A stretch of 64,000 nt of DNA, taken from Chloroflexia bacterium SDU3-3 (GTDB lineage: Bacteria > Chloroflexota > Chloroflexia > Chloroflexales > Roseiflexaceae). A program made the position numbers and the translations under genes. This document shows positions 28,682 through 54,641 of the stretch, in pieces. The notes beneath the pieces were generated by a model, which was not told the DNA's origin, ran no database searches, and saw nothing but the letters and a program-made list of their open reading frames with translations. The stretch lies in the NCBI GenBank assembly GCA_009268125.1, contig WBOU01000003.1, positions 248,001 to 312,000 on the forward strand, read 5' to 3'. Each line of letters begins with the position of its first letter. Positions within the stretch are counted from its first letter, which is position 1.

Positions 28682-29428
28682 TCACCGCAGCCGCTCGGGT
28701 GCCCAGCCCACCACATCAAGGCGGCGCACGAAGTGCAGCAGCGGCGGCTGGGGCGGCAGCGTCACGCCGATCTGGTCGGCCATGCGGTTGAGCGCAAGCT
28801 CGGCGGTGGCGGGCTGCAGCGGCCATGGCTCGTGGTGGATCTCGCCGCGCCAGAGGTGGCCGCGCCGGTCGGCGGCATAGAGGCAGTAGCGCTCGGTGAG
28901 CCAGTGCTCCAGGCTGCCCGGCGTAGAGCGGTAGACTGGGCCTGCTGGGCGGTAGTGGGCGTGCAGCTCGGCGGGAGCCGCGCCGGGGTGCGCGCGCCTG
29001 CTGCGGTAGAGGATGGTGCCGCCCAGGTCGTCGCAGGCCATGCGGGCGTGGAAGTAGGGCAGGTGGAACACGGCCCTGGCGCCCTCCACCGCCAGCGGGC
29101 TGGCCGCATCCAGGCTGAAGAACCACACCCCCGGCTTGCCGCCCGCCGTCACATAGGTGCGCACGTTCAGCTCGGGGAAGGCCGACACACCAGGGACGGC
29201 GGGGCCATAGCGCGGGCGCGTCCCGCGCATCTGGAAGGGCACCACGCCCAGCCAGGCCTCGCCGCCGTAGGTCTCTAGCTCTAGCCCGGGCGGCAGCAGG
29301 GCGCGCAGCGACGCGGCGGGCACGGGCCAGTGGGCGAACAGCAGGCTATGCCACTGCATAGCCAGCACCCAGGGGGTGGCAGGCGCGGGCCAGGGGCGGT
29401 GGGCGGTATCGCCTAGGGGCATAGGCAC
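28682..29428 (-). CDS. DUF2071 (YqjF-like) protein
   Basis: 248 residues with family landmarks: MQWHSLLFAHWPVPAASLRALLPPGLELETYGGEAW, LGVVPFQMRGTRPR, ELNVRTYV, GVWFFSLDAASPLAV, LPYFHARM, LTERYCLYA. DUF2071 proteins are soluble and lack a demonstrated reaction. Its start lies 3 bp after the B12-binding subunit stop, so it is the last gene of the large minus-strand unit; whether it belongs functionally is uncertain. Confidence 0.82.
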   Translation of the reverse strand: MPMPLGDTAHRPWPAPATPWVLAMQWHSLLFAHWPVPAASLRALLPPGLELETYGGEAWLGVVPFQMRGTRPRYGPAVPGVSAFPELNVRTYVTAGGKPGVWFFSLDAASPLAVEGARAVFHLPYFHARMACDDLGGTILYRSRRAHPGAAPAELHAHYRPAGPVYRSTPGSLEHWLTERYCLYAADRRGHLWRGEIHHEPWPLQPATAELALNRMADQIGVTLPPQPPLLHFVRRLDVVGWAPERLR

Positions 29429-29431
29429 TCC

Positions 29432-54000: not shown

Positions 54001-54641
54001 TCGCCGGTCCAGATGCTCTGGCAGGCCAGGTGCACCGCCACCAGCGAGGACGAGCAGGCGGTGTCCACCGTCATGCTCGGGCCCTGGAAGCCCAGCGCGT
54101 AGGAGAGCCGCCCCGAGAGCACGCTGTGCGCGCTGCCGCTGGAGACGTAGAGGTCGATGCCGTTGATGTCGTCAAACAGGATGTTGCCGTAGTCGCTGTT
54201 GCACAGGCCCATGAACACGCCCACCGACACATCCTTCAGGCGCTCGGGGATCTGCCCCGCATCCTCTAGCGCCTCCCACGAGACCTCCAGCAGCACGCGC
54301 TGCTGCGGGTCGATCGTCTCGGCCTCGCGCGGCGAGATGCCGAAGAAGTAGTTGTCGAAGCGGTCGACCTCGTCGATGAAGCCGCCCCAGCGCGTGGCCA
54401 TTTTGCCCGGCGTGCCAGGCCGTGGGTCGTAGTAGTCGTCGATCTTGAAGCGGGTGCTGGGAATCTCGCTGATCGTATCAACCCCATCCAGCAGCAGCTT
54501 CCAGAACGCCTGCGGCCCGTTGGCCTGCGGGAAGCGACAGCCAAGCCCGATGATCGCAATCGGCTCGTGGGCCGCATCGCCAGCGCTGCGCTGGCTAGCC
54601 CCTGCAGAGCGATCTTTCCCGTTCTCGTGCACATGATCCAT
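48021..54641 (-). CDS. Reducing type I polyketide synthase, KS-AT-DH-psiKR-ER-KR-ACP (Mas-like)
   Basis: 2,206 residues; AAGGAG precedes the ATG. KS 26-450: DTACSSS with Cys196, His332 (EAHGTGTSVGD), His372 (KTNIGHTEG). AT 570-880: GQSMGE with Ser663, and YASH (765-768), the motif linked to methylmalonyl-CoA in modular ATs. DH 935-1225: His969 (LTDHRVQGAIVLP), Asp1144 (HPALLDVCFQ). A structural KR half lies at about 1240-1460. ER 1485-1800: HAAAGGVGQAAVQLA. KR 1818-2000: TGGAGGLGLSVAQ, LDD motif, Tyr1968. ACP 2095-2170: MGIDSLM with Ser2130. An acidic tail follows. No thioesterase. One fully reducing module suggests iterative synthesis of a saturated, possibly methyl-branched acyl chain. Confidence 0.95.
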   Translation of the reverse strand: MDHVHENGKDRSAGASQRSAGDAAHEPIAIIGLGCRFPQANGPQAFWKLLLDGVDTISEIPSTRFKIDDYYDPRPGTPGKMATRWGGFIDEVDRFDNYFFGISPREAETIDPQQRVLLEVSWEALEDAGQIPERLKDVSVGVFMGLCNSDYGNILFDDINGIDLYVSSGSAHSVLSGRLSYALGFQGPSMTVDTACSSSLVAVHLACQSIWTGESKLALAGGVNLIFWPNTYMGFARANMLAPDGRCKFGDASANGFVRSDGAGVVVLKPLAAALEDGDPIYSVIRGSAVNNDGNSGGLLMTPSQPGQEAVFAEAYRVAGITPGDVAYVEAHGTGTSVGDPTEIQALAKVLGQGRREGQPCLLGSVKTNIGHTEGAAGIAGMIKVALALKHGVIPPSLHFNTPNPHIPWDELPVQINTQTSEWPGYTPTPYASVSSFGISGTNAHIVMSALPPAAVKRPEAKRLAPPPDRPTVVHDPAYLLPLSAQSKDALLGLARSYSTFFQEGEKAASLHNICYTASARRTHHDYRLSLVGRSPADFVEQIDLLLSEESEEAKSGTPTSRWIGEKRKKLVFAFSGQGSQWVGLGRRLLVWDPVFRAAIERCDAVMREFVDWSLIDEVMADESQSRLSEVDVIQPFIFATQVALAELWRSWGVEPDAVVGQSMGEVAAAYVAGAISLKDAARIICMRSKIVKNKNGASKGGMMVVGLSLEESKKLIEPYSELVSIGVSTSPVSTVLSGDTDMLDKIMSELDQRNVFCRRIKVDYASHSPQVDPLIPELTEALKDVAPRAGTIPMFSTVTNSITDGSNFDVNYWVHNLRDPVLFSSAIHKLLDDGHEIFLEISPHPVVMSAIEQSLKFLGRSGKVLPSIREGEGRAFMLRSLGELYTMGYPVDWQRLYPAGGEIVPLPAYPWQGEKFWMNPDADAAGDGRRANAKGLLIGQHMHSAQSAGHFLWETSLGLKNFAYLTDHRVQGAIVLPAAAYVEMALSAASEAFGPGSHKVEKVDFEKALFLPEQGSRRIQLIVAPNTLGGASFEFYSMQDSAPGQQPTWTRHAAGLIRVAPVGAIAPSREPEDIAQIRERCAQVIQRPEFYASMDARGLQYGPMFQGVDEIAWQPGEALGKLTMADAVKAEGHGYQVHPALLDVCFQILAGAMLGDADKTGGGTYLPVHLGGIQLYGSPGESGVWGHAFYQSSADMGDDCVEGDVFLLDESGALVMEVRGLRAMKLERSAAASAPKLDDWLYEPRWEQQPLVAPEAAKAAKPGAWMLFADQGGVAQQIKAKLEERGETCVVVSDTVSDGTYLIDPTDADSFAKLVKEALPEGQKGWRGIMHLWSLDAPASESLVLADMQRVNERGSFCVMKLIQALAASGSSVFPKLWVVTAGSQAAGAPGELVSVAQAPLWGLGKVAGVEHPELHCTKVDLSYAPSEIEVDALYAELWGESKEDQVALRGSERYVPRIVRSSADEWMAQREQLTFDDAFRLEITTPGILDNLTLRRFARRKPGPGEVELRVRAAGLNFREVLIAMDMLPPVMKGAMDIGWECAGTVVAVGEGVTDVKVGEDVIGIAAGCFGSYVTTSATLVARKPDRLTAEQAATIPVAFLTAYYALTYLGRMEKGDKVLIHAAAGGVGQAAVQLAKQAGAEIFATAGSDEKRALLRAQGVEHIMDSRSLDFADQVMEITGGRGVDLVLNSLSGDFIPKGLATLAPGGRFLEIGKVDIVKNSQLGMHQLENNISFMTIDLGQMFVTRPDVWARFLREIIALFNAGEIEPLPMRHFPLSQAPEAFRFMAQGKHIGKVVLTMDEDVLPVAPAKNVSFPENATYLITGGAGGLGLSVAQWMVDAGARNLVLVGRSGASAAASEFIAKIEERGANVVVMKADISNTQQVDDLLSEVRRTLPPLKGIFHAAGVLDDGILVQLTPERFKPVMAPKVDGAWNLHTLTLKDELDYFVVFSSCASVLGSPGQANYVAGNSFLDALAAYRRELGLPGMAINWGAWADVGLAIRSDRAQNLDQQGVLPFSPAQGVQLMEKMMQRNPTQIMGVTMDWPKVLAAYNSPMLSVIAAEQQSTGDAAAKRRTDGLTQEKLLQAEPSARRGMVETFLLEQVAKVLRTSSSKLDVNLPLNKMGIDSLMAVELKNRIETAIELSLPVTTLLQGPSVAQLADVLMEQLPADEATAEAAIASEAEVEEMSDEEVDAMLSSMIDDK

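Follow-up and report, generated by a model that had tools for sequence, protein, structure and literature searches.

A putative operon for a sulfated polyketide glycolipid in Chloroflexia bacterium SDU3-3, with a four-gene core that recurs in a second phylum

Results

One stretch of the genome of Chloroflexia bacterium SDU3-3 (contig WBOU01000003.1, positions 248,001 to 312,000; 64,000 nucleotides, hereafter the window) carries 18 consecutive open frames on its minus strand, running from 54641 to 28682, which we read as one putative co-transcribed operon. Judging from its protein families, the cluster probably builds a methyl-branched fatty alcohol, adds a sugar and sulfate and exports the product, and we think it rather probable that the locus is devoted to making a sulfated glycolipid of the cell surface. 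The first four genes encode a polyketide synthase (PKS), a stand-alone thioester reductase (TER), a GT21-type glycosyltransferase and a sulfotransferase (ST). More than chance lies behind this layout: a contig that was assigned to another phylum has the four genes again, all on one strand and arranged as in the window. This recurrence marks the locus as a real lipid pathway, and one that is apparently undescribed.

The second copy of the core lies on CADCVF010000082.1 (locus L063), a contig of the uncultured Rubrobacteraceae metagenome-assembled genome (MAG) MAG58. There the PKS (795-7481), TER (7478-8794), GT21 (8787-9995) and ST (9992-11116) follow one another in the window order with overlaps of 4-8 bp. 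They are about 55%, 44-46%, 50% and 55% identical to their counterparts, the window match of the ST being ST5. Downstream of the ST come a 976-residue MMPL transporter, a phosphopantetheinyl transferase (PPTase) whose frame overlaps that of the transporter by 4 bp and, after a further 494 bp, a UGT-like frame; an MMPL protein and a PPTase beside the core would fit the needs of a surface polyketide lipid. The initial annotation of the window had proposed a search of other genomes for co-conservation, and this was found for PKS-TER-GT21-ST. The synteny it expected between the PKS and the sulfation genes extends to the ST and stops there, as the 21.1 kb stretch has no Sat-CysC match.

Gene content and layout

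The operon proteins were assigned to families with Pfam, and ten proteins also with NCBIfam. The features are listed below in operon order, preceded by the region upstream.

54642..55666, intergenic: low-GC region of about 1 kb 5' of the PKS (GC 0.571 in 54001-56000)
48021..54641, minus: type I reducing PKS, KS-AT-DH-ER-KR-ACP, Mas-like, with a YASH acyltransferase (AT) and no thioesterase (Pfam domains; colinear with 9d2z)
46328..47668, minus: stand-alone TER, predicted chain release (TIGR01746, 333.5 bits, cut-off 213.35)
45110..46324, minus: GT21-type membrane glycosyltransferase, ceramide-glucosyltransferase/HpnI-like (PF13506)
43934..45091, minus: sulfotransferase ST1 (PF13469, E 1.4e-38)
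42787..43947, minus: sulfotransferase ST2 (PF13469, E 3.5e-37)
41649..42854, minus: sulfotransferase ST3 (PF13469, E 2e-34)
40481..41686, minus: sulfotransferase ST4 (PF13469, E 1.2e-36)
39329..40465, minus: sulfotransferase ST5 (PF13469, E 7.4e-38)
38058..39368, minus: MFS_3 transporter, candidate exporter (PF05977, E 8.9e-61; 40 bp overlap with ST5)
36870..38048, minus: GT4-type glycosyltransferase (PF13692, PF00534)
35054..36832, minus: bifunctional sulfate adenylyltransferase/APS kinase (Sat-CysC), synthase of 3'-phosphoadenosine 5'-phosphosulfate (PAPS) (NF004040, PRK05537, 831.3 bits, cut-off 669)
33633..34790, minus: Na/Pi-cotransporter-family membrane protein (PF02690, 35.1 bits, cut-off 29.1)
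33315..33602, minus: 95-codon frame with no match in the Pfam scan
32245..33288, minus: DHH/DHHA1 phosphoesterase, NrnA-like, candidate phosphatase of 3'-phosphoadenosine 5'-phosphate (PAP) (PF01368, PF02272)
30662..32233, minus: methylmalonyl-CoA mutase large chain (TIGR00641, 766.7 bits, cut-off 303.8)
30230..30631, minus: methylmalonyl-CoA epimerase (TIGR03081, 128.9 bits, cut-off 114.95)
29432..30007, minus: methylmalonyl-CoA mutase B12-binding chain, start uncertain (PF02310, E 9.7e-27)
28682..29428, minus: DUF2071 protein (PF09844, E 8.5e-76), with a 3 bp gap to the preceding gene

Pfam or NCBIfam backs the family that the initial annotation gave to each gene it named, and the frames lie where it had placed them. 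It had counted sixteen same-strand genes; the strand holds and the count rises to 18 with the 95-codon frame and the DUF2071 gene, whose product also has a weak acetoacetate-decarboxylase match. Gaps or overlaps of mostly 2-37 bp had been described, and 14 of the 17 junctions do fall between -68 and +37 bp. The other three span 222-352 bp: PKS to TER (352 bp), Sat-CysC to the Na/Pi-type gene (263 bp) and epimerase to B12 chain (222 bp). All these sizes were computed from the longest or listed starts, so a number of them could change. The GC content of the operon is 0.669 against 0.643 in the remaining window, and composition is therefore no marker of foreign origin.

The low-GC region upstream of the PKS is likely to be the promoter region. 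No minus-strand promoter-like match was found within it, and across the cluster both terminator-like and minus-strand promoter-like matches occur at about the level of shuffled sequence. Beyond this region lies a divergent gene for a PAS/LuxR-type regulator (55667-57055), a candidate controller.

The polyketide synthase and its release enzyme

The PKS has the layout of mycocerosic acid synthase (Mas), with all six domains in a single chain. Its best full-length solved relative, and the top match among the solved PKSs listed, is mycocerosic acid synthase 9d2z, to which it aligns end to end (residues 26-2186 to 6-2116, 1276.8 bits). Against the Pks2 equivalog (NF041183) it scores 1483.6 bits, below the cut-off of 2400, although this is still the top-listed model. 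All six PKS domains, the TER and each of the five STs retain the active-site motifs typical of their families, and we assume that these carry their usual catalytic meaning. As the PKS forms a single module, it would be used iteratively.

The YASH motif of the AT, which we take to be a methylmalonyl signature, aligns with the YASH of four solved ATs and is in keeping with the mutase and epimerase genes of the operon. Among ten aligned PKSs, YASH is found in two (the window and the Rubrobacteraceae locus) and VASH in four, and the others have different letters. The AT likely uses methylmalonyl-CoA.

Because the PKS has no thioesterase match in Pfam, release would fall to the stand-alone TER, which passes its curated NCBIfam cut-off and keeps the TGxTGFLG and YxxxK motifs. 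The PKS ends in an acidic tail, EEMSDEEVDAMLSSM, and the TER begins with LSPKEKRAILARML; both have counterparts in the Rubrobacteraceae proteins. We infer that the acidic tail and the LSPKEKR-type helix at the TER N-terminus form a docking pair.

The same genome has a second large PKS, a 1886-residue frame at C14:65012-69265 (L207) that is 45% identical over residues 13-1465; the 19.9 kb around it hold no matches to other operon genes.

Glycosyltransferases, sulfotransferases and exporter

HpnI and ceramide glucosyltransferase, both of GT21, act on a lipid hydroxyl. The best match in the PDB of a profile made from the two GT21 proteins is a ceramide glucosyltransferase (E 4.9e-36), and the window protein would fit lipid glycosylation. 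We rejected its assignment as a true HpnI because it scores 201.6 bits, below the equivalog cut-off of 310. It further differs from HpnI in that close relatives were seen in two genomes only.

The STs match PF13469, PF00685 and, weakly, PF17784, and no other Pfam family at E 0.001. In a tree made by a quick method from 90 rows (85 different; duplicates included, aligned stretches below 300 residues or with stops dropped), the five window STs and the Rubrobacteraceae ST form one clade, together with identical copies of two of its rows (SH-aLRT, an approximate likelihood ratio test, 99). The base of the clade is left as three branches, namely (ST4,ST5) with support 81, the Rubrobacteraceae ST, and (ST1,(ST2,ST3)) with support 95. 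The array seems to have grown inside the core's own ST lineage.

In a rival reading, the STs of this glycolipid pathway would sulfate, in place of one polysulfated head group, the lipid chain or several lipid products (congeners), being partly redundant duplicates, in line with the 45-54% identity of ST2-ST5 to ST1, the motifs kept in all of them and the two subclades of the tree. Against this, few hydroxyls would be left on a chain made by a fully reducing PKS, and none of the families recognised in the operon is a hydroxylase, two frames being of unassigned role. We consider this explanation quite unlikely.

Genes for STs and exporters also pair elsewhere. An MFS_3-like match follows an ST on the same strand within 213 bp in four of 80 ST loci (L096, L105, L115 and L119), and such a match also lies next to an ST in two genomes of the window's order (L056 and L057), as do ST5 and the MFS gene here.

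Distribution of the core

A scan of genome contigs with a profile of the five-ST alignment confirmed 192 relatives, and the loci of the best 80 of these were compared. PKS, TER and GT21 matches occur together in one of the 80, the Rubrobacteraceae locus. No PKS match was found in 77, many of which are short stretches; besides the Rubrobacteraceae locus, the exceptions are a weak match of 32% (L110) and a Myxococcota MAG (L129). In the latter (L129:1074-12116) a PKS is followed by a broad-family ST and a GT2-like glycosyltransferase gene. It resembles the window in placing an ST and a glycosyltransferase after a PKS and differs from it in a YAFH acyltransferase, in a methyltransferase-like insert and a thioesterase-like end (these two by eye) and in having no TER or GT21 match; it is a second PKS-ST-glycosyltransferase layout, with another release chemistry.

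The scarcity of PKS matches among the ST loci is also what would be expected under the chief rival to a single pathway. In this alternative two functions share a location and nothing else: PKS, TER and GT21 make a glycolipid, and the STs, Sat-CysC, the transporter and DHH form a block of their own that sulfates an exopolysaccharide or sheath glycan. In an Anaerolineae MAG (L117), Sat-CysC (66%) and ST (38%) genes at about 5.4-11.1 kb share a strand, within 5 kb and with no PKS match, and may be a self-standing sulfation block. In another genome (G005) partial GT4 matches surround a Sat-CysC homologue. The 352 bp gap 3' of the PKS points the same way. Set against this, the gene immediately after PKS-TER-GT21 in the Rubrobacteraceae locus, which overlaps GT21 by 4 bp, encodes an ST of the same clade, and only 18 bp separate GT21 from ST1 in the window. 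Two unconnected neighbours are, in our view, unlikely.

The PKS tree of ten rows pairs the window with the Rubrobacteraceae protein (support 99), apart from the PKSs of the window's own order; that protein is 55% identical to the window PKS and the others about 45% or less. PKS relatives past 1e-200 were found in 21 of 200 genomes, own included, and the stretches around those in six of the 20 other genomes and on the own contig C14, some of them short, gave no TER, GT21 or ST matches. ST1 has a match in eight of 100 relatives, own included, of which three others are near full length (41-46%), with no TER or GT21 match in the stretches examined.

GT21, tried as a marker for further loci, revealed none, its close form being absent elsewhere in the genomes searched. 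It has some match in 59 of the 100 relatives, the best outside the own genome reaching 60.5 bits and about 30% identity. Among 400 genomes of the window's phylum only the own protein (836 bits) and one other (G179, 127 bits) pass 1e-30. From the phylum of the Rubrobacteraceae MAG 396 genomes were searched, and 39 from its order, and that MAG alone passed; 34 plasmid records all lie below 60% identity (25-28% in the ten shown). Because the core is found in two phyla with such gaps in the distribution of GT21, its sharing suggests horizontal transfer.

Supply genes

Sat-CysC passes the cut-off of the PAPS synthase equivalog. Elsewhere, the genome encodes separate Sat (43%) and CysC (57%) proteins on contig C5, a second mutase large chain on C16 (86%) and a second full DHH protein on C5 (52%). 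This last gene sits beside infB-, rbfA- and truB-like genes (named by eye), which is the housekeeping setting of nrnA. Because these counterparts lie elsewhere, the operon copies of Sat-CysC, DHH and mutase look dedicated; a housekeeping copy was recognised by its neighbours for DHH, and by presence elsewhere alone for mutase, Sat and CysC. The 18 kb around the C16 mutase hold no match to other operon genes.

A more modest operon, ending at Sat-CysC (35054), would leave the methylmalonyl genes, DUF2071, DHH and the Na/Pi-type gene as ordinary chromosomal neighbours. The 263 bp gap falls at that very point, none of these genes is matched in the 21.1 kb of the Rubrobacteraceae locus, and the Na/Pi-type gene is the sole member of its family found in its own genome. 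The second mutase, and the second DHH in its infB-truB-like setting, speak against this. So do six mutase loci of relatives, two of them on short contigs (3.8 and 5.1 kb): matches to the epimerase, B12 chain, DHH and Na/Pi-type genes are missing from all six. Weak PKS matches of 24-28% occur in two of these loci. The YASH AT, moreover, would need methylmalonyl-CoA. We hold the shorter operon to be somewhat unlikely.

For the Na/Pi-type gene, the frame is open to 35516, with a probable start at 34790. Its product scores 27.2 bits against the NCBIfam model Na_Pi_symport, below the threshold of 50. It belongs to a divergent family that was found, once per genome, in 40 of the 350 genomes searched in the phylum, the window organism's among them. 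The initial annotation had proposed it as a candidate sulfate importer, and this part of the annotation fared poorly: in 29 other loci (flanks of about 1.5 kb) no homologue lies beside Sat-CysC. One of ten Sat-CysC loci of relatives has the pairing, in the order sulfite/nitrite reductase, Sat-CysC, Na/Pi-type homologue (G072). We rejected the protein as a proven importer, and sulfate import by it is possible. A homologue lies at L180:8364-9494; counting the window, a Sat-CysC neighbour was seen in two places only. A universal-stress-like protein seems recurrent, by eye, near such homologues.

Discussion

Read from family and motif, the catalytic steps may be ordered as follows. Mutase and epimerase, which together form the established route from succinyl-CoA to (2S)-methylmalonyl-CoA, would supply the extender. 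The single Mas-like module would then build, iteratively, a saturated chain with several methyl branches, as its domain order and motifs suggest; the acyl starter would come from a loading enzyme encoded outside the operon. The TER, docked through its N-terminal helix to the acidic tail of the PKS, would release the chain as an aldehyde and then a primary alcohol. GT21 would glycosylate this alcohol at the membrane, and GT4 would perhaps add a second sugar. With PAPS made by Sat-CysC, the five STs would each sulfate another hydroxyl on the sugar head, PAP would be cleared by the DHH enzyme, and the MFS protein would export the product, a task that the MMPL protein may have in the Rubrobacteraceae locus.

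This succession of polyketide chain, reductive release, glycosylation, sulfation and export is the logic that had been proposed from the window, and it is supported by the Rubrobacteraceae core with its MMPL gene, an arrangement to be expected of a pathway of this kind, and by the extra copies of the PAPS-synthesis, DHH and mutase genes. The further claim that every step from precursor to export is present went too far, since none of the 18 genes is recognised by Pfam as coding for a starter-activating ligase, a PPTase or a sugar-nucleotide enzyme. Calling the phosphoesterase PAP-clearing likewise exceeds the evidence for its family, DHH/DHHA1: it reaches 79.7 bits with the NrnA equivalog NF053633, below the cut-off of 350.

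These two results count against the pathway as drawn, and several others join them. The three wider gaps could split the operon, and the substrates of the glycosyltransferases, STs and transporters are not readable from sequence. Methylmalonyl use is not certain, because the AT nucleophile motif is GQSMG, against GHSQG in the four solved ATs compared, because the near motif VASH occurs in four of the eight other PKSs, and because the AT alone is nearer to modular ATs (274 bits) than to Mas (241 bits). Both PKSs that pair in the tree are unusual in composition, and such a bias can pull sequences towards each other. The core is known in two genomes only, and the second contig, being from a MAG, could be misbinned; it has one ST and, like Sat-CysC, MFS and mutase go without a match in its 21.1 kb.

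Two known systems invite comparison. The published account of mycobacterial sulfolipid-1 used here (PMC9989471) describes Stf0 acting on trehalose, acyl transfer by PapA1 and PapA2, starter activation by FadD23, and Pks2, Chp1, MmpL8 and Sap. As far as that description goes, the window shares with it a Mas/Pks2-type chain synthase, sugar sulfation and a dedicated exporter, and the Rubrobacteraceae locus adds an MMPL transporter. The window differs in that its chain would be released by reduction, where sulfolipid-1 has acyl transfer to trehalose, and in that a glycosyltransferase would build the head. It also has five STs of PF13469 and an MFS protein as candidate exporter, and neither PapA nor FadD occurs among the 18 genes. 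That the cluster recalls sulfolipid-1, as had been noted, is accurate for the Mas-like PKS, the STs and the exporter. It does not carry over to the Pks2 score, to the ST type, which is not that of Stf0, to PapA and FadD, which the locus lacks, or to MmpL, which the window lacks.

Heterocyst glycolipid islands, in the part of the literature drawn on (PMC11804610), hold hgl genes with a PKS, a TER, hglT and an ABC transporter. They resemble the window in combining PKS, TER and a dedicated glycosyltransferase for the sugar head with export. Unlike them, the window has a Mas-like PKS with a YASH AT, a GT21 enzyme, and an MFS protein in place of the ABC transporter. Going by gene content as described, the system would work like a cross of sulfolipid-1 and heterocyst-glycolipid synthesis. 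To our knowledge, heterocyst glycolipids are not sulfated. We found no recognisable description of such a combined system in the literature, as judged by titles and the starts of abstracts and with most subscription journals outside the search.

We know of PKS-made sulfated methyl-branched glycolipids only from mycobacteria. It is possible, and we put it forward tentatively, that the locus represents a new class of envelope lipids, polysulfated glycosides of long-chain alcohols with several methyl branches. A mobile PKS-TER-GT21-ST core would be common to the window organism and a Rubrobacteraceae bacterium, lineage-specific growth of the ST array would set the number of sulfates, and the pathway would have its own housekeeping of PAPS, PAP and methylmalonyl-CoA. 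If a core uniting reductive release, glycosylation and sulfation is indeed shared by two phyla, such lipids would have arisen or spread outside mycobacteria, and the building and export of sulfolipids could be studied in a non-pathogen setting. With the tandem ST array, one could test directly the number of sulfates that a head group receives and the enzyme responsible for each.

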